Part shown: piece by piece, positions 2,511 to 20,041 of the stretch
Numbering within the stretch: the first letter of the stretch is position 1
Layout of the letters: every line of letters starts with the position of its first letter
IMG/VR virus record: IMGVR_UViG_3300042361_000315
Coordinates: 1 to 20,041 of that record
Source of the DNA: a virus
Direction: 5' to 3' (one strand)
Length of the DNA stretch: 20,041 nucleotides
Program-made: the position numbers and the translations under genes
The notes under the pieces: generated by a model
The model's input: only the letters and a program-made list of their open reading frames with translations
Told to the model about the DNA's origin: nothing
Database searches by the model: none

Positions 2511-3178
2511 GCCAACCCAAGTTCACAGGCATCTGGATTCCTGCCGGGGTGTTCAACAACAACAACCTGACCACGTCCGCAAAACTCCTCTACGGGGTCG
2601 TGGCGGGCTTGGACGGTGATGATGGGTGCTACGCCTCCAACGCCTACCTCCAACGCCTCCTAGGCGTCAGCGAGAGGGGCGTTCAGGTCCTGCTATCGGA
2701 GTTGGACGCCGCTGGTATCATCCAGCGGGCCGAGGTCGATGGCCGACGTATCATCCGCACGGTTGAAAGCATCGCCTTGGGGGGTGCAGAAATCTGCGGG
2801 GGGGGGATGAAGAAATCTGCGGGGGAGGGGTGCAGAAAACTGCACCCATATAACAAAGATGATAACAAAGAGGATAAGATACCCAAGGGAAGGGTAGCCA
2901 AGTCCCCTGATTTCATGCTCACCCAGCAACCAATCCACATGAAGGTTCCCGAGTTCGCCGCCGCTTGGGTCAGGTGGGCAGAGTATGCCTACCCGAAGAA
3001 GAAGGTCCCCTACATGACCTACATGGGTCAGGTGGACTTCCTCAACAAGATGACCCCGGACGAAGCCGTGGAGTGCATCGAGCAATCCATCCGCAACGGT
3101 TGGAAGGGCCTGTTCCCTGTCCGCAAATCCAAACACCAGACCAAAGCCCTAACCAAAAACGACCATGAGCAGTTTTGA
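2507..3178 (+). CDS. lambda O-like replication initiator, winged HTH
   Basis: This 223-residue protein has the two-part build of phage replication initiators. Residues about 20-85 form a helix-turn-helix domain (LTTSAKLLYGVVAGL, CYASNAYLQRLLGVSERGVQ, LLSELDAAGII) of the kind found in O-like and HTH_36 proteins. A low-complexity linker (about 92-135) joins it to a C-terminal domain (about 147-205, WVRWAEYAYPKKK to IRNGWKGLFP), likely the helicase/loader contact region. The DnaC-like ATPase follows with a 14-bp overlap, the classic initiator-loader pair. The chosen start is GTG 2507, which forms GTGA with the upstream stop; GTG 2498 is also open. The linker DNA holds three 23-bp iterons and an AT-rich stretch, so the gene probably contains the origin. 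Confidence 0.78.
   Translation: MSQPKFTGIWIPAGVFNNNNLTTSAKLLYGVVAGLDGDDGCYASNAYLQRLLGVSERGVQVLLSELDAAGIIQRAEVDGRRIIRTVESIALGGAEICGGGMKKSAGEGCRKLHPYNKDDNKEDKIPKGRVAKSPDFMLTQQPIHMKVPEFAAAWVRWAEYAYPKKKVPYMTYMGQVDFLNKMTPDEAVECIEQSIRNGWKGLFPVRKSKHQTKALTKNDHEQF
2781..2849 (+). repeat. three 23-bp iterons inside the initiator gene
   Basis: Three tandem units lie at 2781-2803, 2804-2826 and 2827-2849. The shared core GAAATCTGC / GAAATCTGC / GAAAACTGC starts at 2789, 2812 and 2835, exactly 23 bp apart. Units 1 and 2 agree at 20 of 23 positions; unit 3 agrees with unit 1 at 16 of the first 17. Two units have dyad symmetry (GCAGA-AA-TCTGC; GGGTGCAG-AAAA-CTGCACCC). Since 23 is not a multiple of three, the units are read in different frames and encode different residues, so the repetition is kept at DNA level. 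This matches the iteron array of the lambda origin within gene O. Confidence 0.72.
2848..2881. other. AT-rich candidate DNA unwinding element
   Basis: Directly after the third iteron lies a 34-bp stretch with 8 G/C bases (about 24%), far below its surroundings. It contains two near-identical 12-mers, TAACAAAGATGA (2851) and TAACAAAGAGGA (2863). Iterons followed by an A-rich tract is the order found in the lambda origin. It also encodes the charged linker NKDDNKEDKI, so the composition may be partly a coding effect. Confidence 0.55.
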
Positions 3179-3836
3179 CATCTCTTGCCATTGTGGGAAG
3201 CGTGGAGCCCTGCTTGCTAACACAGAAGGAAAGTTGACCCGGTACCATCGGTGCAGGGAACACATCGAACCCGACCGCATCAAGGCTGACGGGCTCGGAG
3301 AGATTCAGTTCGTCCCGTCCTACCCTCCGCTGTTCAAGAACACCGAAGTCGCCAAGTTGCATCCCCGGTTGCAGTCTGCCGCCGATTGGGTTCCGAGTGA
3401 ACAGAAGTCTGGGCTCCTGCTCCACGGCACGACAGGCGTAGGCAAGACCCGGCTTGCTTGGCACGTCGTCAATCGCCTGTGGGTAGACAAGGCCCGGCAG
3501 GACATCAATATGCCATACAGGTTCCTGACCATGCGGAAGTTCGAGGGGCTCATCGAAGAGTCCTTCGGCGAGAAGGCCCACGCCCGGATGCTGGATGACC
3601 TCATCAAGATTGACCTGCTTGTCTTCGACGACTTGGGCAAGGAGAGGGCTACGCCTAGGCTGGCCTCTGACCTGTTCGCCGTACTCGACGAGAGGTCGAC
3701 GGCGATGCGGCCGACTATCATCACGACCAACTTCAACGGCCCGGCACTCGTCGACAGGTTCGACGACAAGGAGATGGCTAACGCCTTGGTCCGCAGGTTC
3801 CGTGATTACTACTCCCTCGTCGGAGCCGGGGCTTGA
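3165..3836 (+). CDS. DnaC-like helicase loader ATPase
   Basis: A 223-residue AAA+ ATPase of the DnaC/IstB type, which places the replicative helicase on DNA at an origin. Walker A is GTTGVGKT (88-95), Walker B LLVFDD (151-156), sensor 1 TTNFN (187-191), and an Arg-finger-like ALVRRFRD lies near the C-terminus. The N-terminal 33 residues have three Cys and two His (CHCGK at 8-12, HRCREH at 28-33), suggesting a small zinc-binding knob. It overlaps the initiator gene by 14 bp, so the two are probably co-translated. No replicative helicase is in the window, so the host or another phage gene would supply it. ATPase class is clear; the loader role rests on context. Confidence 0.87.
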   Translation: MSSFDISCHCGKRGALLANTEGKLTRYHRCREHIEPDRIKADGLGEIQFVPSYPPLFKNTEVAKLHPRLQSAADWVPSEQKSGLLLHGTTGVGKTRLAWHVVNRLWVDKARQDINMPYRFLTMRKFEGLIEESFGEKAHARMLDDLIKIDLLVFDDLGKERATPRLASDLFAVLDERSTAMRPTIITTNFNGPALVDRFDDKEMANALVRRFRDYYSLVGAGA

Positions 3837-3845
3837 CATACGCAC

Positions 3846-4370
3846 ATGGCGACCCATCTTGAACAACGCAGGACTTGGTTGAGTCTTGCGGGTTGCATAG
3901 CATCAACCGGGATGCCAGCCGTGTGGCTGGCGTCCCTTACCTTTCTCACCGCCCCTGCCATGGCCACGCTGGTCGACGAGGACTACCTTGACCGGGTGGC
4001 TAGGATTGAAAGCGACAACAGGCCGTCAGCCGTCGGACGTGCCGGGGAACTCGGAGCCTATCAGTTGAAGAAGGCCGCATGGGAAGACTCCGTCCGCAGG
4101 ATGTTCGGCCGCATCCCGAAGGCATACGCCTACTGCCGGGCCAACTGCTTCGACCCGGCCAAGTCCCGTGCCGTGGCCCGTGAGCATCTCCTCTGGCTCG
4201 AACGCACCATGACCAAGGAAGGTTTCACGCCGAGCAAGATTTCGCTTTACATGTCTTACAACTTGGGCATGACTATGTCCGAACGCTATGCACACAATCA
4301 CAGACACCCGTCGCTTGCTGACCAACGAAAGGCCGTATTCGCAAGGGCCGAACGCATTCTCCATCCATGA
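3846..4370 (+). CDS. exported lytic transglycosylase / endolysin-like
   Basis: A 174-residue protein with an N-terminal signal or signal-anchor (basic n-region EQRR, hydrophobic stretch about 11-40 ending APAMA) followed by an SLT/lysozyme-like domain. Motifs are RIESDNRP with candidate catalytic Glu55, GELGAYQL (67-74) and YNLG (138-141). Family enzymes cut the glycan strands of peptidoglycan. It may be the phage endolysin, though it sits with replication genes and not with the holin-like genes. The first ATG at 3846 is chosen because it keeps the signal sequence; ATG 3912 and 3960 are alternatives. A 12-bp hairpin (3909-3936) lies in the signal-coding part. Cys97 and Cys101 could form a disulfide. 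Confidence 0.75.
   Translation: MATHLEQRRTWLSLAGCIASTGMPAVWLASLTFLTAPAMATLVDEDYLDRVARIESDNRPSAVGRAGELGAYQLKKAAWEDSVRRMFGRIPKAYAYCRANCFDPAKSRAVAREHLLWLERTMTKEGFTPSKISLYMSYNLGMTMSERYAHNHRHPSLADQRKAVFARAERILHP
3909..3936 (+). other. 12-bp stem-loop in the 5' part of the lysozyme gene
   Basis: GGGATGCCAGCC pairs with GGCTGGCGTCCC around a GTGT loop: 12 pairs with one G-U. It starts 73 bases after the DnaC-like stop and is followed by TTACCTTTCTC, which is not a proper T run. It may slow translation or partly stop transcription between replication and lysis functions. It also covers the alternative ATG at 3912. Confidence 0.45.
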
Positions 4371-7252: not shown

Positions 7253-7556
7253 TGAGGTCGGGTGCGTTGCGGAATTGCCTGATGACCCAGTCGATGAGTT
7301 CCGGGCCAGCCATTCCAGAGAAGGTTAGGATTACGGACTTGTAGATGCCAGCAAGTTCAAGCGGCCAGACTGCGAAGTAGGACAGGACGCCAATGATTAC
7401 GGACGCTAGGATACGCCGAGTCCACCAGATTGCCGGATGGGCCTCATCAGTAACAAGCAAGCGGGCGAGCATCCCGGCTCCTCCAAAGAGGGCCGTAATC
7501 CATCCACCTCGCTTAAAGTCCTGCATGGCGGCTTCGTAGTCTGGTCCAGTTGTCAT
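7215..7556 (-). CDS. putative holin
   Basis: A 113-residue membrane protein with hydrophobic segments at about 17-35, 48-70 and 71-90, and a strongly basic C-terminus ([10 protein letters not shown]). The pattern [15 protein letters not shown], then [19 protein letters not shown] resembles LydA-type and other phage holins with three segments. Holins form holes in the inner membrane and time lysis. Its ATG overlaps the stop of the giant gene (ATGA), so lysis genes are probably read with the late virion genes. Holin function is inferred from size, topology and position. Confidence 0.65.
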
Positions 7557-10500
7557 TTCGGTTCATCTCTACGGACACGTCGCTTGGCTTCTTCAAGGTC
7601 ATTGTAGATGCCGACAAGTGCGTTCTGGGGGTTGTATAGACGGAACTTACGACCCGCAAGATATGTGATGGCATACCCTGCTCCGTTACGCCACATGGAA
7701 CCGTTTTCGGTAGTATCGTTCGTCCAAGACCTCCAGATGACGGCTGGCTGACGAACAGGTGCGGGCAACGGACTAGGCGTAGGCGTCGGAGTCGGCGTAG
7801 GCGTGGGCGGAGGCGTCGGCGTGGGCGTAGGCGTCGGCGTGGGCGTGGGCGTAGGCGTCGGCGTGGGCGTAGGCGTCGGCGTGGGCGTGGGCGTAGGCGT
7901 GGGCGTGGGCGTAGGCGTGGGCGTCGGAGTCGGCGTAGGAGTAGGAGTAGGCGTAGGCGTAGGCGTAGGCGTAGGCTTCGGCTTAAGCGAGGTAGGCTTG
8001 ATGTCCCTACTCCGGTGAGTAGCGGCCAATCGAAGGGACTCCTCAATGTTCTGCTCAAGCAACGTCTTTGTCTTGCTGTTCAGTCCATAGAAATCTGCGA
8101 TGGCAGAGAAATACTCTCCAAGCATTCCACCGAGGTTCTTGAACCAACGGGTCAATCCTCTGACAAAACTAGGCTTGATGGTTCCACCAAGAGGGTCGTT
8201 CGGGTCCTTGGGGAAGGAGTTCTTGCCACGTTCAAACATGTCAAGATTGCCCATGTCTACCGCAGGGATTTCACGAAGGACTGCCGCCTCGTAGGGTCCA
8301 GCAAAAGCCATAATCATGAACTCAATCGGGTTCCAGTATCGGTACAGGCTGGTATCAATACGAGTATTGTAACTCCTTTCTTCGTCAGGAGTGCCCTGAT
8401 ACTCCTTGTCTTTCCTGACGATGTAATGCTCGACCTCCTCATACGTCCCATCCTTGTGCCATTTGGAACTGTTTAAATGCTCAACCATGTCGCTGACTTC
8501 AGTAGACTGATTGATGTTCTTCCTGATAAGGCTCATCAAGGTCACTTCCTTGACGTCAACGCTGTTCAACTTCGTCTTGTTGTTAGTCTTTTTAGTCCTT
8601 ACCTTTACCTTGATGTTGTTCAGGGCATGCTCGTAGACATGCAGGACACGGGCCGCCGCAATCTCGGTACGCATGGCATCCAACTTGGCGTCATAGTCAG
8701 ACTGTGTCATCTGTCCGGACTTCAGTTCACGTTCATACTTTTTGAGTCGCATTCCGACGTCCGTCTTGAATCCGTTTGCCATGAGGAACCAGTTATCGCC
8801 TTTCGTTCCGGTTCTGGTGAAAAGGTTGAACAATGTCGTCTGTGCGGTCGTGCTTGAGATGCCTTCAGGCAATCCTCCACTACCTCGCATGGCCCTGAGG
8901 GCCTCTCCGTGGAACGTATGAAGAATCTCCTCGAAGAACACGCCCTCGAATCCACGGCCTTGGATTCCGAGCATCTTAAAATCTCCGAGTTTTCCGGTAT
9001 TCGTCCACCTGTCACGATGTCCCTTGATGATGTCAGCAAGCGTACCAAGCATCGGCTCGTTCTGCATCTGCTTTGAACGGCCACCGGGAATGGTAGTGGC
9101 TTCGAGGCCGCCACCAGCCCGTGCTTGGGTAGTCTTGATTCTTCGATTGAGCAGACTTACCCTTTTGGTCGGGTCGGACCTGTAATTGGATACAGCCCCC
9201 TCAAACATGGCCTTAATCATCTCGGCCGTCGTGGACATGAATCCACTCTGGCCGATGAGGAAGTCTAATGCGTCTTTAATTAGGATGCTACCTTGCGTCC
9301 TGTCAGCCCATTCGATGAACTGCTCGAAAGTGTGAACCTTTGGGTCTGGAGTATCCTTCTTGGGGATAGGGGTAAACGGCGGACGGTTGTCGAGTCGATT
9401 GCCTACCCCCCTGTCTAGTCTGGCGGCGTTAGGACCATCCTGACCCTCGACTGGCTTCATGCTCATCTGAGCATCGCCCATGTCGTCCGGCTTGATGGCG
9501 TCGCTCAAGGTATCCACGGCTTCTGTGAGGGCTTCAATCTGCTCCTCACGACGCTGGTATCCTTCGGTGTTCTCAAACGCCTCGGAGTTAGACTGAACGT
9601 CCTCCAGTTCATTCAAAATCTCACGGAGCGACTCGACTTGGTCGACGATGTCGGAGATGGCAACGTCCTTGGCTTCCTGAGTGGTAGCCTTGTCGTAGGC
9701 TTCTAGGGCCTCGGCGGCTGACTTTAGGATGCCCTTCTTGGTGCCGGACTTGTTGCCGTACAGTTCGGTCGTGTGGTCCTTGGTGAAGGACGTGGAGTCC
9801 AGAGTGGATTCGACGTCTTCAAGCAACGTGCGGAAGGCACCCGTGTCGATGGCCTTAGGCTTTGGAATCTCGACCTTGGGTTCGTTTGCTCCGGCGAACT
9901 GAACTTCGTCATAGATGCGGCCGAGCCACTTGTTGAAGTCGGCCGGGTCCTTGTACATGGAGTACCTGTCGCCTCCGAACATCTCAGAACCTTCACGGAT
10001 ACGCATGGCCTTGACCTTGTCTCCGGCATCGGAGGCCATGATGTCCTGATACACCTTCTCGTTGATTAGGCGATAGAACTGACCGTGCTTGTTCTTGCCA
10101 AACTGCAAGACACGGGCGTACATGGAGGACTCGTCATCGGCGTCCTTACGATAGCGGAGTAGCGAGCCGACAAGGGACTCAGGATTGAAGTTGGCACCCT
10201 GCTCGGCCAAGAACTCCTTCATGTTCCGGGGAGGCTGGCCTCCGTCCTCGACGGGCTTGTAGTAGGCGTTGGGGTCTAGTTTGGTGATGGTAGAACCACC
10301 CGGAGCGTTTGGCTGACGAGTAGAACCTTTACCAAAGATTTCCTCACGGATGTGGAAGGGAATGTTATCCTTGTTGATTACCGAGCCAAAAAGGTATTCC
10401 GCACCAAGAGAGCGTACACGCTCTCCAGCCTCTGAATAGATAAGTTTTCCGTACCCCTTGTTACGCATGTCGCTACGAACATCAACTCTTGTAATGAACG

Positions 10501-13500
10501 CATGGTCGCCAAACTGGGCACCCTTTGCACCCTTTTCAAAGCGAACACCAATCTGTGCTATTGGCTCCTTTCCACCACCCTCCCAAGGATTGTCGAATCG
10601 AATGGTAAAGCCATAGGGGACATCTTCTCCCGTAAACGGAGAAGCATCAGAGTCATAGTCTACCTTGATTGTAAGCCCATCAAGAATCTCTGGGTTTTCA
10701 TTTGCGTATCTACCTAAGAATCTTGAGGTGAACTGCTTTGAACGAACATCGTATTTCTTTCCGGTAGGTTCAAGTTCGCCTTCGGCTGGCTTCATACGGA
10801 TGTCACGCTTGGTCGTGTCGAACGTGCCACGGTTGTACTCAACGTCCTTTACCTTGCGTCCGTCAAACGGAACGTATCCGAACACGTCTTCTCCGAGGAA
10901 ACTATTGGCGAAATCTGGCAGTTTCTCATTATAACTTCCGGTATCCTTTTGACGCTGATTACGGACTTCGGCTTCGACACGATAGATTACGCCGTCATAG
11001 CCCATCTTCTTCATCATGGTCTTGAACGGCTCGACGCCACCTGCGGCCTTTATTTCCATGTGCAGGACCATCTCGTTGTCGAAGTACATCGGCTTATCCA
11101 TTCGGACAGCCACTCCATACAACTGACCCGGGTCCTTGGGATTACCTTCCTTGTCTAGACGCCAAGAGAAGTCGGTACCATCCTTGTTAATCTTACGAAG
11201 GGTGAAGTTAGTGGCGAGGACCTTGTCGTTGGTGTAATGGGTTCCGAGCGAGGAGTCCACGCTACCCTTTCGTGCCCAATAGGACTTATCTTTGTCCATC
11301 CCATCACGCAGGTACTTGAAGCGACGACGGCTCGTCGAGCCATGGTATGCCAATAACGTGACCCCGGTCGGGAATACCATGACGTCGGGGGAGTTCACTT
11401 TGCCATCCTTTAGGGACGGACGAGGAATGTGAGTTCCCTTGTCATAGATGAACGTAGCGGCGTCATCATCCGGAAGGATAAGTTCGGTACCCTTGGCAAA
11501 CGCCCTGACCTGAGGGTCGTCATAGGCGTCCTCCATCCGGCGAAGCGGAGTAGGACCTTCGTCGCCCTCGGCTGGCTTGAAGTTGTACCGGGCATCCTCA
11601 CGGGAGAACTCACCATAGTTGCTGGAAGCCTTGACGTTGGTGGTGGTCTGGTCGGCAACGATGGTAGGAATGCCTTCGTTGATGGTCCGGTCAGGGACGA
11701 CTACGGCATCAAAGCCATTTTCAAGAAGATGGCGGTTCATCCTGTTCCAATGCTCACCCCAAGTTTCCATGGCGACTTCCATGTCTCCCTTGAAGTGTAC
11801 CTCCTTCTTGTCGTAGCCCTCAGGACCATCCATCAGGAAGCGGCCTTCTTCAACCATCTTCAGGAAGGCGTCGTAGTCGTATTCGACAAGACCTTCATAC
11901 ATGGTTCCTTTGCCATACTCAGGTTCATCGGCGAACTCATCCTTGATGGTGTTTTCCCAGAAACTGCGGAGAACCTTGTCTAGTTCAGGATTCCTCTTTG
12001 CAACATCCTTAAGTTTTGTAAGCACCGCAGGTTTTTCGCTACGGAGATAGTACATGTCAGCCATGTCTCCCGTATCCGCAAACCCTTCAGCCGTGTTCTG
12101 TTCGGAAATGAAGTAGTTGGGGTCCATGCGTCCAGCAAGGTTCATTCCATACTGGTCAGCCCTTCTTGTTACAGTCTCTCCGGTCTTAGGGTCCCAGTAT
12201 CTCCTTTGCTGACGTTCTCCAAACTCGTCAAAGTTACGCTTGCTCATCACACCCTTGAACACGGTCGTGACGAATCCCTTTTCCATGTCGGCAGGACGCA
12301 ACTGCTGGCTAACGCTCTTAATGAACGGAAGCCCTCCAGCCCACTTGCGGAACTGCGAAGTATCCGGGTAGACCCACAGTTTGCGGGGCTGGTTCTTACG
12401 GGCTTCTTGAGCCCGCTTGGACTGCCAGTCCGGAATAGCGTCGCCTTCGGCGGGCTTCAGGTTCTTCGTGCCGACGGTAAGCGGCATGTTGTCCGGACCG
12501 TCGCCACGGGGAAGCGGGGTGGCCCCTTCTTCCATGTCCAAGGTAGTCTCAATGACACGATGCTGGTCCTTGGCGATGTCCTTGCGAAGAACGAACACGG
12601 TGTCGAAGTCTCCACCGTCGTTGATGTTGTTCAGAACGACGCCGTCGTGTCCCTGAAGGAATGCTTCTTGAACAAGGAACTTCATCCGGCCGCTAAGAGG
12701 GTCGGCGGCGTAGTCAAAGACAAGCGGGTTCCTCATCTTGAACACCGCTTTCAGCATCTGTGGCTTCGTGTAATCCGGCCTATCAGGGCTGGTTTGATAC
12801 ATTGGAGACAACGCAGTCTCGTCAGAAGCGGCAAAGAAGATGCCGTGGCGGGCGGCCTCGGCTCCGGTGGTTTCTCCAGCCTTAGCCGGGTCAAGTTCAC
12901 GGACCTTAAGCAATTCGGCAGAAGGAGTACCGTGTACGCCTACCCCAACGAAACCTACTCCGGTCTGGAACTGGTTAGCATAGGTATTGGTTTGATAGAA
13001 CCTACGCATCGGCAGTTTTTCGACTAGGTACTTTCCTAGTCCGTCATGGACCTTATCAGGGTCAAGATTGCTGATGTACTCCTTGGCGTCCAGAACACGT
13101 TTGGCATAACCGCCAAACTTAGGGCCTTGGACGGCAGACCTTTGGTAATGACCCCTATTCTTGGTGGGCAGTCCCTTCTTTAGTTCGGCCTTCAACCTCT
13201 TGATTTCGTTGCCCATCTTGGCCTGAGCCTCAAGTTCTCCTGCGAACGGCATCAGGTCACGGACCATCTGCATCTGGCCCTTAATTTGGGTTCTGTTTGA
13301 AGCCTGAAGGTTGCTGACGAAGTTCGGAATGAACTCATCCATCGAGGTCGCCTCGTTGGCCGCTTTGAGCAAGGCGTCAAAGCCGCCGTACCAATTCATC
13401 GGAGTTCCGACTACCTTACCACCGATGTACTTGGAAAGCACATCATTGAGTCCCTTGCTCGACGTGCCAAAACTGGGCTGGCCAGTCTGCTGACCGATTT

Positions 13501-16500
13501 CAAGACGCTCAAGTTGCTCCTCAATCATCAGTTCACGGAGTTCACCGTTGAAAGCAGATTCGACCTCCATGATGAGACGTTCTGCTTGTTGCTTCGTGAC
13601 GAGTCCGGATTCGATGTTACGCTTGAAGTCCGTAAACTGTTCGTCGGCGGTCTGACGGATGATGGGAAGTTCCTCGACAAACTCCTTCATCGCCGTGGTC
13701 TGGAACAGGTCGCCAAGACGAACGGCTTCAGCGGCTTCCGAATCGTCGACAGGCTTAAACATCTTCTGTTCGGCCTGAACATTACGAACAGAGGTAGCAA
13801 GGTTGTCCTTGTCACGCTTGTTGACCTCACGGGTAATGGCCCGAGAGGCTTGGTCGGTGCTGGAGAACGAACCTAGGGAGTTGCCCTGAGAGTCGTAAGC
13901 CCGGGCCATCGAGCCCTTGCTGATGATGTTGTAGCCAAGCGGGTGCTTGTAGACCGTGCCGTTAGGAGTCTCCTCGGCGGTCATTTCGCTCGGCTTGTAG
14001 TTACGACGGGTGCGGTCGTAGACCTGAGTATGGTCGTAAGGCACGATGTCCGGACGGACGGCCACATGGCTCATCCGGTCGATGCGGAGGGTCTGGTAGA
14101 CGAAGAACTCGCCACGGCCAGCGGGTCCGGCGTAGCCCGGACGGGGAGGATTGATGTAGGACTCGCCCTGCTTGATGGCGGAGCCGAGGACCTCATGGAA
14201 AAAGTTACGCTTCTTGGCACCGACGTCGCCGCCACCGAACAGGTCGGCAGAGGGTATGGCGTTCGGGTCGCTGAGGTTCTGGAGGTAGCGGTAGAAGTCC
14301 GCTTGGAAAGAATCGTAGTCGTTGCCGTACAGGGCACGGGCCTCAGGCTGGGCATAGACGGCCTGACTGCGGCGACCAAGATTGTCGTAGTCGAGGGAGT
14401 GGGCAAGGACGCCGAAGTTGGCTTCGCCGTTCTTGGTCATCGTGATTACCGTTTCCAGCGAGTGAGGAACGAACACACGTCGGGTCATCGGGACGACACG
14501 GGCGTCTCCGGTGTTGACGACACGGGGAGGATTGAGTCCGGAGCCCTGCTCCATGGACTCAGCCCAGTAGTTAGACTGAAGGACGTTCGCACCTTTGCCC
14601 TTCTTGGCGGCCACCTCACGGATGGTCTTGTACTTGTCGGCAAGGGCCTGAGACATGTGGCCGTTCTTGACGATGACCTCAAGTTCACGGTCCGAGAAGG
14701 TGCCTACGACAGTCGTGTCTCCATTGACGTCGACGATGGTCTGGGTGCCACGCTCGGCGGCCGGAATGGTGTTGACGGTGTCAATAATGCCTTGGACACG
14801 GGTCTGGTTCTCACGACGCATCTGGGCTTCGGAGGTTTCCCGGGCACCGCCCTTGCGGTCACGACGGAACAGGCCGTCAAGGCCGTGAGTTTCGCTGAAC
14901 TTGGCACGTTGCTCCGGAGTCATGCCACGGAGGATTAGGTTGTCTGCCGTGTTGATGCCAGAGGCCGCACGGACCAAGTCACGCATCAGGTAGTCCAACG
15001 CAGAGAAACGGGTACGACGGCCGTCACGACGGAATACCTCGTCGATGTGTTCCGGACGGGGTTTCCCGGTACGCTCGTCGATTACGGTCCTAGAGAAATC
15101 GAAGTTAGGCATCGACTTCTTGAGTCGGGCTTCGGTGAAGGACATCCAACCCATCTTGAGGTTGTCGAAGATGCCACGAAGACCGGGAAGTTTGCCGCCG
15201 AAGAACAGGTAGTCGGGAGACTTGTCGTCCAGCCAATGATTGAAGTAGTAGGCACCGAACTCTTCGGAAAGATTCTCAAGGATGGCACGACCTTCCAGAC
15301 CGGACTCCGAGATGAGTTTTCCGGTAGTCTCGAACTCCTTCATGGCCGCATCCAACTGGTCCAACTTGGCCTTCTTCTGGGCAGGGTCCTTGTACTCGAT
15401 GTCAATGTACCGCTTGAACATCTCGTAGGCTTCTGCGGTCGGTACCTCGCCAGCACGGATAAGTTCACCCTTGTCGCCACGGACGCCGAGGATGGACTGG
15501 GTTACTGCGTCGGTGAAGTTCTTGGCGTACACGGAGGAACGCATGATGCCATGGAACAGTTCATGTCCGATGGCATTCTTCTTGGCCCATTCCGTGTTGA
15601 TGAAGATGTCAGTCGCACCGGACTTGTCCTTCTGAATGACGAAACCTTCCCAGCGATGGTACTGCGTCGGGTTAGCAGGGTCCTCTCCACGAAGCACACG
15701 ACCAGCACGGTCCGGGTCAAAGGTATCGACCAACTTGTTCTTCTGGAGGTAAGCCTCGAAGGAGGCACCATCGTGCATGTGCAGACGGGCACCGGGAGCC
15801 ACGGTATCAAGGCCGACGATGATGTGGTCGTAGGACTTGTCATGGACCTGACCCAATGCTCGAAGGAGCATCATGGAGTCGTATTGGGCCTTGTCCGTAT
15901 CCTTTAGGCCCTCGATGACCATGTCCGCTTGGATGCGGGTGCGTTCACGATGGACGTCAGTAACGGCTCGGCCTACGGCTCCACCGATAGCACCAAGGGC
16001 GGTACCGGAACCAGCACCAGCCGCCGCACCTTCAAGACCTCCGGCAAGACCGCCGAGGGCACCGCCAATTACAGCACCTTCAAGTGCGGCATCTCCGGCG
16101 GCATAGGCGTACCCGAAGATAGGGTCTACGGCGTCGATGATTTGAAGCATTCGCTTGGCCTGAGGCGTAAGCGAGCCAGCCTCGGCCTTAAGGGCACGGG
16201 CGGCATAGGAAAGGATACCACGCTGTTCCCTTCCGACCTGACGTCCGATGGCACCAAGAGTCTCGCCGATGCCACCCATGACGTTGGCGGCATAGTAGGC
16301 GTCGGATACGGTGGACCATCCGGGAACTCGGAGGGCAGAGGTGGCAAGTCCAGCACCCTGAAGGGTTTGGTGGAAAGCCTGAGGGGACATCCCAACGATG
16401 TCGCCAAACAAAGCAGAACCACGGGCTACGGCACCATCAATGGTTCCGCTGGTAGCACGGCCAATGAGTTCAAGGGGGGCTCCGGCGACACGCAAGGCAC

Positions 16501-17284
16501 CGGAAAGTACCAAGTCCTTGTAGCCCTGAACACGTCCAGCGGCGGCGATGATTTTCTCGGCGAAGTGACCAGCACCGACGGCCTTGGCTCCGGCCTTGGC
16601 GATGGCACCAAACGCACCGGAAGGAATGAAAAGGGTAGGGTCAGCGATGTAAGAGACGGCCTGAGCCACCTCCGGAATCATCATGCTCTTGTCGATTTCG
16701 ATGTCGAACACCTCCTTGGAAGCGGAGGTCTTGTTCGTCATGATGTCCATCGTAACGGCGTTGAACTCACGGGCACGAAGGAACTGTTCGTATTCGGCAA
16801 CCGGGTCAGAACCATCGCCAGAAAGTACGTTCTTAAACTGGAACAAGACGCTGTTCGGGTCCTGAGACTGGGCCAGCATTCCGTAGAAGTCACGGGTGCC
16901 ACGGGCAAAGCCTTCAAACAAGGTAGGCAAAGCCTTCTTCATCTTGTCGTCGGCTTCCCATCCGGCATCTATGGCGTTACCGAGGTCATCAAGGACCTGA
17001 CCAAATCCAGAAGTAAAAGCGTCGATAATGTCGACCTCACGGCTCTTCATCCAGTTCTTGTAGACCTCGTATTCCTCGATGCTTGGCTTGTACCGAGAGT
17101 CTTCGGCCATTATTTCAGCCAGTTCATCCCCGGTGATTGGGGCGTCCAGTTCAGCCTGTGCCTGTTCACGCTGTTCAGGCGTCAACGTGGCCAGCAACTG
17201 CTGTTCCTCGTCGAGTTGGTCGGGGGTTCCGAACATCGGACCCTGCAAGGGTTCGACGACTTTCTTACGGATGAGGTCAGCCAT
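7553..17284 (-). CDS. giant modular polyvalent protein, probable ejected virion protein
   Basis: A 3243-residue protein. In order: N-terminal helical region with hydrophobic segments (to about 390); a glycine-zipper-like Gly/Ala stretch (about 398-432); an HExxH metallopeptidase (HELFH 574-578, EEFGAYYF near 674); a long unrecognised conserved-looking region (about 800-1170); three ADP-ribosyltransferase-like modules (about 1445-1605, 1670-1900, 1978-2163); a GNAT-like module (about 2175-2340); a helical module (2348-2605); a zincin-like domain with altered motif (EEILH 2785-2789); a Thr-Pro stalk (about 3104-3170); and a small C-terminal domain. A tag K-P-[AV]-[ED]-[GD] recurs six times, mostly at module borders. 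It follows a 795-residue virion-type gene, the place of T7 gp16, the largest ejection protein. The start ATG is three bases from the upstream stop. It may be packaged and injected; this is inferred from position and domain content. Confidence 0.8.
7774..7976 (-). repeat. hexanucleotide tandem repeat encoding a Thr-Pro stalk
   Basis: About 34 copies of a GGCGTN-type hexamer (mostly GGCGTA, GGCGTG, GGCGTC, with a few GGAGTN) run through this stretch. On the minus strand each unit reads as a Thr-Pro pair, giving a rigid extended linker before the last 65 or so residues of the giant protein. Gain or loss of a unit stays in frame, so stalk length can vary without breaking the gene. On the plus strand it yields a meaningless Gly-Val open frame. 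Confidence 0.92.
8200..8990 (-). other. degenerate zincin-like domain of the giant protein
   Basis: Around residues 2760-3030 the giant protein has [14 protein letters not shown], where the zinc motif HExxH would read EExxH (Glu2785, Glu2786, His2789). About 200 residues later is [10 protein letters not shown] (Glu2988), resembling the third-ligand region that follows 'HExxHA' in phage polyvalent peptidase domains. The first His is replaced, so catalysis as a normal zincin is doubtful. Recognition is by pattern and tentative. Confidence 0.35.
10265..10760 (-). other. GNAT acetyltransferase-like module of the giant protein
   Basis: Residues about 2175-2340 contain the acetyl-CoA binding signature of GNAT enzymes: a strand [10 protein letters not shown], then RNKGYGK (R2274, pattern R-x-x-G-x-G), then a helix [20 protein letters not shown] and a late Asn/Phe strand ([17 protein letters not shown]). 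It is flanked by boundary tags at 2165 and 2343, so it is a self-contained insert. Its DNA is poorer in GC than most of the gene. The substrate cannot be predicted. Confidence 0.62.
10796..11353 (-). other. ART-like module 3 of the giant protein
   Basis: Residues about 1978-2163 run from LLAYHGSTS (His1981) through [14 protein letters not shown] and [11 protein letters not shown] to [20 protein letters not shown]. The order 'HG(T/S)', 'G.hfs.d...A', 'GYDGVI', 'N.GTFD..' is that of ADP-ribosyltransferase-like domains in phage polyvalent proteins. The module ends in a boundary tag. ART activity is not proven. Confidence 0.5.
11580..12270 (-). other. ART-like module 2 of the giant protein (altered first motif)
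   Basis: Residues about 1670-1902 begin [13 protein letters not shown] (Lys1677 where the other copies have His) and include [22 protein letters not shown] and [16 protein letters not shown] before the tag at 1903. The order of motifs parallels the other two modules. Loss of the first His suggests a non-catalytic or diverged copy. Confidence 0.4.
12470..12950 (-). other. ART-like module 1 of the giant protein
   Basis: Residues about 1445-1605 contain [13 protein letters not shown] (His1451), [24 protein letters not shown] and [10 protein letters not shown] followed by [12 protein letters not shown]. This is the best fit to the phage ART-like pattern (HGT, HGIYFS, NPLVF, GYDGVI, final hydrophobic strand plus 'IK'). 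Boundary tag KPAEG follows at 1610. Confidence 0.55.
15240..15620 (-). other. HExxH metallopeptidase domain of the giant protein
   Basis: [11 protein letters not shown] carries the zinc motif HELFH (residues 574-578, bases 15551-15565), with hydrophobic residues on both sides as in active zincins. A likely third ligand lies in [11 protein letters not shown] (Glu674/675), a pattern seen downstream of HExxH in phage polyvalent peptidases. It could process the giant protein itself, other virion proteins or a host target. Confidence 0.6.
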
Positions 17285-17286
17285 TA

Positions 17287-19674
17287 CTAGGAGGAAGGAA
17301 GGTTACGTTCAGTACGCAGACGACGTCTGCGAATCTGTTTGATAACGTCCGATTCCTGCCCGCCAACCCTAACATTCAGTCCCATCGACTTAGGCCAGTT
17401 GACGATTTCTGCGTCAACACGGTCCTTAAGTCCCTTGAGGGCGGCTCGTTCGGACGCTTCTAGGGTAAAGATACCAGTACCCTTTTCGACAATACGCTGG
17501 AGGATTTCCTGTTCCTTTTCGCTGATAGCACCCGGGCCGACAATCGGGATTCGGAGTGCGGCGATGATTACCGACTGCAACTGGTCCGCACGGGCACGGG
17601 CAGTCGGAGACATGGACTCATAGCCCATGTCGTTAATCTTGATGAGTTCGTCGATGGCAGAACGCACGTTAGCCATGTGAGAATAGTTCTTACGGAAGTC
17701 TTGGGCTCCGGCGACAGTTCCGGCAAAGATGCCGTCAAGGATGACTCCGTCGGCGATTTCGGTACCTTGGAACGTAAGGGCCTTGGCTTCGGCCATTTCC
17801 TTTACGTTTGGAGCGTCTCCCTTAAGCACGGTAATGTTGCCCTTTCCGTCTACCATGACGGGCACTCCATTAACCTCGGTCATGCGAACCGTAGCCTCAG
17901 GATACATGGTACGGTACATTTCGGTAAATCCAGTCGGGACAGAACCAAATCTCTTGGAATAGAAGTCTCTGGCCGCCGCTTCTCTTTCGACGGCATTGAG
18001 TTGGTAATCTACAAGGCGGCTTCCAAGTTCTAGTTCACCAATAGAGAAAGGCTTAGATTTGACGGCAGGGGTTGTCGGAGCAGTAGCCGTAGCCTTTTGT
18101 GCGGCTTCCGTAGCGGCTTTAGCAACGGATTCCGGAGTAATCTTGGCGGCTTCCTCTGCGGCTTTAACGGCAGTCTGCTTCTGAGTCTGAATGCCAGCCA
18201 TAGCGGCTTCCTTGACACGCAAGAACTGGTCAGCCGTAAGCGGCTTTCTTGGGTTAATACCAAGTTTCTCCATAGCCTTTTCCATCAACTTACGAGCAGG
18301 AGTGTATTCTTCTGGGAGTTTAGACGCACCAAATCCAAAATCATCTCCGGGGGCCGGAACTGTTCTAGAAGTCGGATTTCGGTTAATGTCTTGTTCCGTA
18401 ATGTCTACTAGAACTTGCCATCCCGTTACTTTTTCTCCAGCGGCAATACGTCCAAGGTGCTTGTCCGATACTTCGCTCAAGATTTCGGAACCAAGAACAT
18501 TGAGTTGCTCCTTGAGTTCAAGCGGCTTCTTGCGTTCAGCGGCGGCGGCTTTTGCGACTTTCTGAAGTCCTTCAGGTACATTGACACCTACGCCCAGATT
18601 GCGAAGTTGAACATCGAGTGCATTGGCTTCAGCCTTTGCTTTGTCACGCATCCGTTCCTGCTCCTTGCGAAGAGCCGGGTCCTTCTCGACGTTCTTCGGG
18701 TCGTCGAATCCGGCCGCATACTTGAGTCGTTCGTCACGTTTCTTAATAAGAGCCTGAACCTCGGGACTCTGCGGCTTTGCTTCAGCCTTGCTTTCGCTTG
18801 CCTTGATGGCCTTTTGGCCTTCTTCATAGGACTTTGCAACGATGTCCTGAACGTAGGCGTCTTCTTCGCCGTAATCGGTAAGGTCGCCAACTTCCGTTCG
18901 TAGACCTTCTGCGTATGCATTAAGGGCAGTTCCGAACTCCTCTTTCTGCTCCGGAGTCATGTCTTGGTCGTTGTAACTGCCCTTAACCTTTTCGATGTAG
19001 TCACGAATACCCTTTGCAACCATTTCAGGGTTGTTCGGATAGTTCTGTTCTAGTTGCTTCTTAAGGTTGCGAACTCCGGCAAAGAACGGATTGTTCGGGT
19101 CGACGATGACGTTTGGAGTGACCACGTCTTCTGTAACCTGAACGCTGGTTGGAAGGTTGTTAGCGGTCTGCTGAAGGCGATGCTTGGCGACAAAGTCGTC
19201 CAACTTCATCTGCTCGTCAATCATGCCGAAGGAAGCCTTGGCAGAGTTAAGGGCGGACAACTTAGCGGACAGACCCTTGCTGGGCGAAGACTTTAGCGAG
19301 TCTAAGACTGGCTGGAGTTGCTTGGCGTAGCGGACCATCGGGTTCTTCTCGATTTCAGCAAACGCCTCCCTGTCTCCGTTTTCCTCAATCATGTCATCAT
19401 TGAGGTATCGCTGAAGAAGCGTAGGGTCCACGCCGGAAGCCTCCATGTAGGCTTGTTGGCGAGACATCAACTGCTGACCTACGACTGAGATGTCTTCGTC
19501 GGCCGCCTTAGCCTTGGCGGTGTTTTCGTAGTATTGCTTCAGGCCGCTGGCGATGTTGGCACCAAAGTTACCAATCCCAGAGCCAAGCATCTGACCGATG
19601 TTTGCTCCGGCTTGAGTGATTCCGGGAACAGCCTCGAAACCGCCAGACTGATACCGCTGAAAAGGGTTTGCCAT
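17287..19674 (-). CDS. probable internal virion / ejection protein, 795 residues
   Basis: The N-terminus ([20 protein letters not shown], then a Gly/Ala/Asn-rich helix-breaking stretch) is typical of podovirus internal core proteins. The rest is mostly helical and polar, with long charged coiled-coil-like regions, an Ala/Thr-rich linker (about 505-555) and a basic end ([10 protein letters not shown]). Length is close to T7 gp15 (about 750), and the gene lies between a small Ala/Gly-rich protein and the giant protein, the 14-15-16 order. I see no catalytic motif. The start at 19674 is six bases after the upstream stop with no ribosome site, suggesting coupling. Function is assigned by order, size and composition, not by clear homology. 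Confidence 0.65.
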
Positions 19675-19680
19675 TGTAAG

Positions 19681-20041
19681 TTAGGTGGTGCGGCCAACGT
19701 AGGCTCCAGCAATCGAGCCAAGGCCAGAAAGGATGCCACTTTGGAGGCCAGCCTGAGCCTGAGCCCGGGCGATGTTGACCTGAGCCTGAGTGCTGTATTG
19801 CTGACCCATGACGCCAGCCATGTATTGAGATTCAGGCTGGACGAACTGCGGGCCCTGAGCCCCGACCATGCCGGAGGCGGCTCCCATGAGGCTTCCGGGA
19901 CTCATTACGTTAGAAAGGATAGGGGCACCGTAGGTGGCCGCAGAACGGTCAGCGATACCAGCACCAAGGCCATACACGCTACCAGCATACTGGCGGGCAC
20001 GGTCTTCACGGGCTAGGCCGAGACGATAAGAGTTGAGGACT
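19681..20041 (-). CDS. partial Ala/Gly-rich virion protein (C-terminal part)
   Basis: The frame is open through the right edge of the window; about 119 C-terminal residues are visible. They read LNSYRLGLAREDRARQYAGS, then Gly/Ala/Ser/Gln-rich helices (GAGIADRSAATYGA; AQVNIARAQAQAGLQSGILS) and end AYVGRTT. Composition and place before the 795-residue gene fit the gp14-like member of the ejection-protein trio, a small protein that in T7 enters the outer membrane. A GTG at 19977 could start a short gene, but the frame continues upstream with the same residue style, so I treat it as internal. Confidence 0.62.
   Translation of the reverse strand, partial: VLNSYRLGLAREDRARQYAGSVYGLGAGIADRSAATYGAPILSNVMSPGSLMGAASGMVGAQGPQFVQPESQYMAGVMGQQYSTQAQVNIARAQAQAGLQSGILSGLGSIAGAYVGRTT

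Follow-up and report, generated by a model that had tools for sequence, protein, structure and literature searches.

What is a single gene that fills about half of a viral contig built to do? The question is raised by IMG/VR virus record IMGVR_UViG_3300042361_000315, which is classed as linear, is probably a fragment and was analysed over its full 20,041 bases (the window). On its minus strand lies a gene for a giant protein of 3243 residues that, as a sequence-only reading of this DNA had claimed, is one uninterrupted frame: it has an ATG start, runs without an internal stop and takes up 9732 of the 20,041 bases. The open reading frame (ORF) is no artefact, because a 75%-identical homologue of 3282 residues exists in another record (L004) and because the start agrees with the N-terminus of family members. 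The giant belongs to a known kind, the polyvalent proteins, and its most unusual feature is a repeated, phage-specific motif at the joins of its modules. These dialect-coded joins are the new aspect; in the open text of PMC we found neither a description of them nor a paper on inter-module motifs of polyvalent proteins.

Joins and their dialects

A short site, [FYWM]-X-P-z-[ED]-(G), marks the joins between modules; it is specific to the phage and mostly uniform within one protein. In the window protein X is K at all seven sites (KP[SVA][ED]), and the other x-P-[ASTVPGN]-[EDQ] strings after residue 1050, three DP and one RP, lie at no border. Six of the copies coincide exactly with the borders (1177, 1610, 1903, 2165, 2343 and 2610) drawn by the sequence-only reading, which was silent on the motif. 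Among relatives, Q, M, S or H stands in place of this K, or KV replaces XP, for the most part uniformly inside each protein; the first site is KP in 7 proteins, QP in 9, MP in 4, SP in 8, KV in 8, HP in 2, and HI and MM in 1 each. The position before X holds F, Y, W or M, and G is frequent after the acidic residue. At +3, which the search pattern restricted to D or E for later copies, Glu is found in 37 of 43 KP, 51 of 59 QP, 16 of 17 MP, 19 of 24 SP and 4 of 4 HP sites, and Asp in 37 of 39 KV sites. All five sites covered by a structure model of residues 1170-2362 (mean predicted local distance difference test score, pLDDT, 66.9) lie in segments of pLDDT below 50, an arrangement equalled by 1 of 1192 circular shifts, the low pLDDT at joins being due in part to shallow alignment.

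By its homologies, the giant is a member of a family of proteins of about 1.6 to 4.6 thousand residues in metagenomic viral contigs, encoded beside virion genes. A head-protein search led to 80 contigs; residues 1-1176 of the giant were homologous in 28 of 34 records searched, and two further scans added complete proteins of about 1.6 to 4.6 thousand residues. After clustering at 85% identity 40 complete representatives remained, two being remote. Across 13 diverse members the backbone (about residues 1-1100) aligns at 29-34% identity, and the remainder varies in length and content. Among GenBank phages tblastn with the window's giant found no relative, a scan of bacterial genomes confirmed none, and the upstream gene and both halves of the giant gave zero tblastn matches against 50,697 phage records. 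L163, L198 and L188 (another gene) were dropped before counting, and L200, L201 and L185, which have no first site, stand outside the dialect counts. The remote relatives L201, L250 and L252 measure 4.1 to 4.6 thousand residues. In L201, four [YF]SP[VAS][ED] strings occur between 2815 and 3601; they were kept out of the statistics because shuffles attain four or more in 11 of 200 cases. Two short members (L253, 1614 residues; L254, 1581 residues) end soon after the first cap domain, leaving a backbone that no effector module follows.

The dialect of the first site predicts that of the later copies. Leaving out the single HI and MM proteins, 146 own-dialect sites were counted in 38 proteins, compared with a permuted mean of 40 and maximum of 81 (0 of 20,000 as high); with 12 hand-set clades as units the same test gave 40.4 vs 10.4 (0 of 20,000). 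Downstream of their first site, KP proteins hold 36 KP and no QP, MP or SP; QP proteins 48 QP, 5 KP, 2 MP and 1 SP; MP proteins 13 MP and 2 QP; SP proteins 16 SP and no KP, QP or MP; and KV proteins 31 KV, 14 KP and 4 SP. Requiring F, Y, W or M ahead of the dipeptide together with D or E at +3 leaves 125 of the 312 own dipeptides vs 19 of 788 foreign ones. Such strict own-dialect sites, counted over the same 38 proteins, number 0 in 44,656 residues of backbone vs 125 in 64,000 residues of effector region. In 55 other ORFs of at least 300 residues from the same loci (29,245 residues, not curated genes) there were 0 sites, vs 82 in the 20 giants compared. The KP, QP, MP and KV groups follow the dialect rule strongly; elsewhere it is weak or untestable.

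On a backbone tree built with the site excluded, a quick tree that warns of long branches, 10 dialect changes account for eight dialects, the minimum possible being 7 and the shuffled mean 25.9; for QP, SP, KV, KP and MP alike, at least two group changes are required, even when starred branches alone are counted. The GNAT modules (41 copies in 40 proteins, at most three in one) follow another course: they have moved between backgrounds, their own tree requiring the resident dialect to change 16 times and QP clustering on it no better than in shuffles (332 of 500 as low). Their borders carry the resident dialect all the same: among the 41 copies, 32 have their own dialect at the 3' border, 5 another and 4 none, the corresponding 5' counts being 30, 7 and 4 (homologous 3' borders: [32 protein letters not shown]). 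In independent pairs contrasting Q with not-Q, 6 agree at the 3' border, 0 oppose and 2 are equal (p 0.031), and on the 5' side an average of 5.7 agree and 0 oppose; for K, M and S the pairs are too few, none opposing among those listed. The clearest example is the end of the first ADP-ribosyltransferase (ART) module, ART1, which reads TVNLSPNEGA or TVNLSPNEGT in L146 and L161 vs TVNLHPNEGA in L122 and L124, matching the first sites of the respective proteins, NWSP and NFHP. The sequences themselves show the modules, the joins, the dialects with their concerted change, and the restriction of the sites to the effector part of this one protein.

What may read the joins

The sequence evidence shows a reader of the joins, of whatever kind, that co-varies with the backbone. 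We lean slightly towards a polyprotein whose recognition sites are read by a co-evolving factor, most likely its own peptidase. The polyvalent effector would consist of a backbone that holds a zincin peptidase and of exchangeable modules that follow on flexible joins, the short site aromatic-X-P-z-E/D-(G) marking every join. One dedicated recogniser, most probably the peptidase of the same chain, would read these sites and co-evolve with them; the sites in one protein would share a dialect because a single enzyme must read all joins, and an incoming module would have to adopt the dialect of the resident. The chain would be produced along with the late genes and then packaged; cutting at its joins, either inside the prohead or following entry, would free single enzymes into the host. 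Proteolysis, the in-chain peptidase as cutter, packaging, injection and timing are what we infer here. A protease is the simplest reader because one lies in the chain and because metallopeptidase processing was proposed for the polyvalent class by Iyer et al. 2017 (PMC5512222, accessible text). On the more specific statement, that the giants are self-cutting polyproteins of DNA phages in which the in-chain peptidase reads the dialect and moving modules are re-addressed to that of the resident, our judgement is evenly balanced.

The metallopeptidase of the sequence-only reading is borne out by several lines. Besides HELFH in the window protein, HE..H stands at the peptidase position in all 25 giants that cover this region and whose discovery did not depend on the motif. 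Two Glu residues after HEXXH (E674 and E675), where a metallopeptidase is expected to have one in a later helix, are invariant in 36 of 36 alignment rows, which were chosen by the pattern HE[LIM][LF]H, so that their HEXXH tests nothing. An AlphaFold2 (AF2) model of residues 463-1179 (mean pLDDT 72.9) compares best with zincins, anthrax lethal factor entries reaching Z 7.3, which falls under the caution level of 8 (root-mean-square deviation 4.1, 163 residues aligned). Matches of the model to N4 virion RNA polymerase (vRNAP) structures are weak (9pnt, Z 4.0; 9pnr, Z 3.8), Foldseek with the model gave none at E<=0.001, and a PDB profile search with the peptidase alignment returned chance-level matches only. 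Pfam, run on the 36 rows, assigned no metallopeptidase family to the window row, the best zinc-peptidase hint being DUF5700 in 3 of 36. A zincin-like peptidase is thus supported, in that modelled fold and motif back each other, neither being proof alone and the shared fold being silent on function. Farther along the same model, residues 852-1029 and beyond (model 392-627; 14196-14731) match the WYL-type regulators BrxR and CapW at Z 5.7-6.6, likewise under the caution level.

If the peptidase reads the sites, its specificity may be visible in its own columns. Column 546, which precedes an invariant Gly on the strand that comes before HEXXH, ranks first of 563 columns for agreement with dialect: all 14 K-dialect rows have E, 7 of 8 QP rows have K, the MP and MM rows have A, and N is found in HP and in 5 of 8 SP rows. 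Additional proteins fit, with A in L233 and L190 (M), N in L211 (H), K in L181 (Q) and E in L189 (K). E546 is retained as a mere lead because the corrected permutation fails.

A number of observations weigh against cutting by the in-chain peptidase, or against the dialect rule on which it builds. Pro hinders most proteases at X-P. The N4 vRNAP, also with a metallopeptidase domain, is packaged unprocessed according to the accessible text of PMC5512222. In the permutation corrected for column 546, 1454 of 5000 were as high over all columns and 494 of 5000 over the catalytic part, and the residue is N in L253 and L254 (Q) and D in L239 and L249 (S). In the 8 KV proteins the KP pattern turns up 14 times, and in the 9 QP proteins 5 times; the KV pattern is itself met about once per protein in several groups to which it is foreign; and 8 of the 38 proteins lack any strict own-dialect site farther down the chain. 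L187 and L195, both MP, have QP at their GNAT 3' borders, and L189 starts with KV yet has KPEE at its GNAT. Of 13 later-found proteins, eight were counted (L213 duplicates L124, L243 and L246 are truncated, and L250 and L252 lack a cap), and these eight give 14 own-dialect sites vs 13 for six foreign patterns together; later own sites are missing from L211, L239, L253 and L254, and L249 has a single weak one. Agreement in this later sample comes from L235 (KV, 7), L236 (QP, 4) and L233 (MP, 2).

The main rival to proteolysis is docking, which we consider rather unlikely and yet worth keeping in sight. Every join would bind one and the same partner (the portal channel, the cap domain or a different ejection protein) for ordered packaging or threading, and that partner would co-evolve with the sites. 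The same sequence evidence (dialects, permutation, tree, resident borders) fits docking equally; Pro-rich short motifs are common as binding motifs; the cap domain adjoins the first site and also sits at the C-terminus; and the short L253 and L254 keep the first site although no effector modules come after it. What speaks for cutting instead is that an intact peptidase has been kept, and that the conserved acidic residue, after which G is frequent, resembles prohead-protease sites cut C-terminal to Glu, as described in the accessible text of PMC5694885.

It is improbable that the sites are read by a different protease, of phage or host, in the prohead or after entry. Precedent exists in SPN3US, where processing of the head proteins falls to a separate prohead protease, as it does in T4 and phiKZ (PMC5694885, in its accessible text), and dialects could track hosts. 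Against this, Peptidase_S78 and ClpP were each found in 0 of 17 family records (which may be incomplete), and confinement of the motif to the giants, with none in the 55 other ORFs, would be odd for a general prohead protease; S77 was likewise found in 0 of 17, a search whose control was also silent and which is hence uninformative.

Still harder to credit is a relic, in which linkers were copied along with modules, or short DNA guided module exchange, the copies being kept alike by recombination. Some borders do look module-borne, as with QP in L187 and L195, and copies share the same codon in a fraction of 0.572, somewhat over the 0.476 expected (28 proteins), a comparison that we take to indicate selection on the protein. 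The Pro codons of the window's copies vary (CCG, CCT, CCC and CCA), and related borders differ at the dialect residues where their flanks agree ([36 protein letters not shown]). Homogenisation of the copies at the DNA level was discarded on the ground that copies in one protein use different codons. That the giant is an ordinary polyvalent protein with a functionless join motif is barely conceivable, its domain content fitting the published class, given the permutation results and the absence of strict sites from the backbone.

Modules and gene neighbourhood

Several disparate activities are combined in one chain (zincin-like peptidase, GNAT and an ART-PolyVal-like domain), as characterises polyvalent proteins. 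The GNAT-like module of the sequence-only reading stands: Pfam PF00583 is sub-threshold in the window protein (E 0.0011) and strong in L195 (E 1.5e-11) and L181 (E 2.4e-15), and the modelled fold reaches Z 10.8 to GCN5 and 10.4 to RimI. Three ART-like modules had also been proposed, and they fared unequally. ART1 is retained: PF18760 (ART-PolyVal) is found in 6 of 18 homologues, each time below significance (best E 0.0033) and not in the window's own row; the motif is VHGT, and all 18 homologues keep its H and a D, the Y of the H-Y-D active site not being invariant; and the viral fold match is to a PolyVal ADP-ribosyltransferase (E 2.6e-4, TM score 0.51 of the target). Tankyrase entries came up in the fold search at E 0.004, the model region matched not being stated. 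The second, ART2, is a degenerate candidate, having K in place of the expected ART His (VFKGV), and ART3 is recognised by motif only (HGS plus a DIR tail). PDB profile searches with the ART1 and ART3 alignments returned chance-level matches only. The sole sign of the proposed degenerate zincin is the EEILH string in the C-terminal module.

The cap, a domain of about 55 residues, has its C-terminal copy in 38 of 40 complete representatives and a second copy after the first join. Before the C-terminal cap a hexanucleotide array (TAGGCG, 7774-7976, 33.8 copies) encodes the Thr-Pro repeat, whose position in L004 is taken by a TPPP-like version. A PHROG match at 3098-3187 is this repeat and was discarded as low complexity.

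Read from the right, the minus strand carries a virion-structural-like gene, the 795-residue gene, the giant, and short genes resembling lysis-type membrane proteins, among which a holin match is weak (E 0.07). The reading as a multi-effector polyvalent protein beside virion genes is supported by module content and by the first two of these genes, and in L003 a major head protein (phrog_1328, E 6e-52) lies 7.5 kb upstream of the homologue of the 795-residue gene on the same strand. A gene of gp15 size does precede the giant directly, in keeping with the gp16-like position assigned to the latter, a comparison that goes back to T7 gene sizes. Kinship with T7 gp16 is positional only; no gp16-like PHROG or Pfam match was obtained for the giant, of which fold models cover residues 463-1179 and 1170-2362. 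Judged by class and position, a packaged and injected virion protein is plausible. An NCBIfam search of the window returned nothing. On visual inspection a plus-strand ORF of 174 residues, at 3846-4370, resembles transglycosylase- or lysozyme-type proteins, and its N-terminus is hydrophobic.

Table 1. Features of the giant gene and its upstream neighbours (positions of the window; residues of the giant)
Feature	Positions	Strand	Basis or remark
Virion-structural-like gene, 3' part, cut by window end	19681..20040	minus	phrog_8003, E 1.7e-4
795-residue upstream gene, likely ejection or virion protein	17287..19674	minus	position and same-place homologues in L003, L004
Polyvalent giant protein, 3243 residues (P0001)	7553..17284	minus	
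Conserved backbone, 1-1096	13997..17284	minus	homologous in 28/34 records; alignment
Zincin-like peptidase region, 463-777	14954..15898	minus	AF2 model, VIA-align best Z 7.3
E546, peptidase column best tracking dialect	15647..15649	minus	not significant after correction
HEXXH (HELFH, 574-578)	15551..15565	minus	
Join site 1, KPSE, 1097-1100	13985..13996	minus	
Cap domain, N copy, 1101-1176	13757..13984	minus	
Join site 2, KPVD, 1177-1180	13745..13756	minus	
Module with ART1, 1181-1609 (H1451)	12458..13744	minus	
Join site 3, KPAE, 1610-1613	12446..12457	minus	
ART2 candidate, degenerate (K for H), 1614-1902	11579..12445	minus	
Join site 4, KPAE, 1903-1906	11567..11578	minus	
ART3 candidate (AYHGS), 1907-2164	10793..11566	minus	motif only
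Join site 5, KPAE, 2165-2168	10781..10792	minus	
GNAT module, 2169-2342	10259..10780	minus	
Join site 6, KPVE, 2343-2346	10247..10258	minus	
Module of unknown function, 2347-2609	9458..10246	minus	homologues in 5 other proteins
Join site 7, KPVE, 2610-2613	9446..9457	minus	
C-terminal module, 2614-3100, EEILH string at 2785	7985..9445	minus	homologues in L004 and L115 only
Thr-Pro repeat linker, 3101-3172	7769..7984	minus	
C-terminal cap domain, 3173-3243	7556..7768	minus	independent E-value 2e-07 to cap profile

Meaning and relation to known systems

The join motif has importance in giving exact candidate sites for the metallopeptidase processing proposed in 2017, for which the accessible text of PMC5512222 names no cut site. 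The dialects of related phages provide a built-in specificity control, and the motif marks module borders where profile searches cannot annotate. If the polyprotein reading is true, tailed phages would use a polyprotein strategy in which sites and protease co-evolve; effector exchange would be limited by protease specificity, amounting to a rule for which effectors are exchangeable; and the dialect could help to divide giant phage proteins of unknown make-up into the units that nature gave them.

The set of modules, which the sequence-only reading had thought unusual, is not so for the class: in the accessible text of Iyer et al. 2017 (PMC5512222) zincin, ART and GNAT are each described, and one GNAT family typically neighbours ART. 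The giant resembles the polyvalent proteins treated there in being large, multidomain and encoded beside virion genes, and in its zincin-like metallopeptidase, Tox-ART-HYD2-like ART and RimI-like GNAT; it differs in its repeated inter-module motif and phage-specific dialect, neither of which that text describes. With gp50, the vRNAP of N4, it shares giant size, a metallopeptidase domain and a plausible place in the virion, together with the weak fold matches given above, whereas the window giant has no RNA polymerase match and the N4 protein is the one reported as packaged unprocessed. A further likeness is found in Elemovirus, phages of Flavobacterium, where QLF85284.1 (L202:9832-20916) is a 'structural protein' of 3694 residues with an HEXXH string and one module in common with L187; identity is 23% over about 260 residues, however, and a repeated motif is not above the shuffled level. 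The Elemovirus giant comes from an isolated phage. A parallel to the dialects themselves is offered by the prohead-protease substrates of T4, phiKZ and SPN3US, whose short Glu sites vary in their letters from phage to phage (A-X-E, S-X-E) according to the accessible text of PMC5694885. There, a separate protease acts on several head proteins, whereas here the motif was found in one protein, which holds a peptidase of its own.

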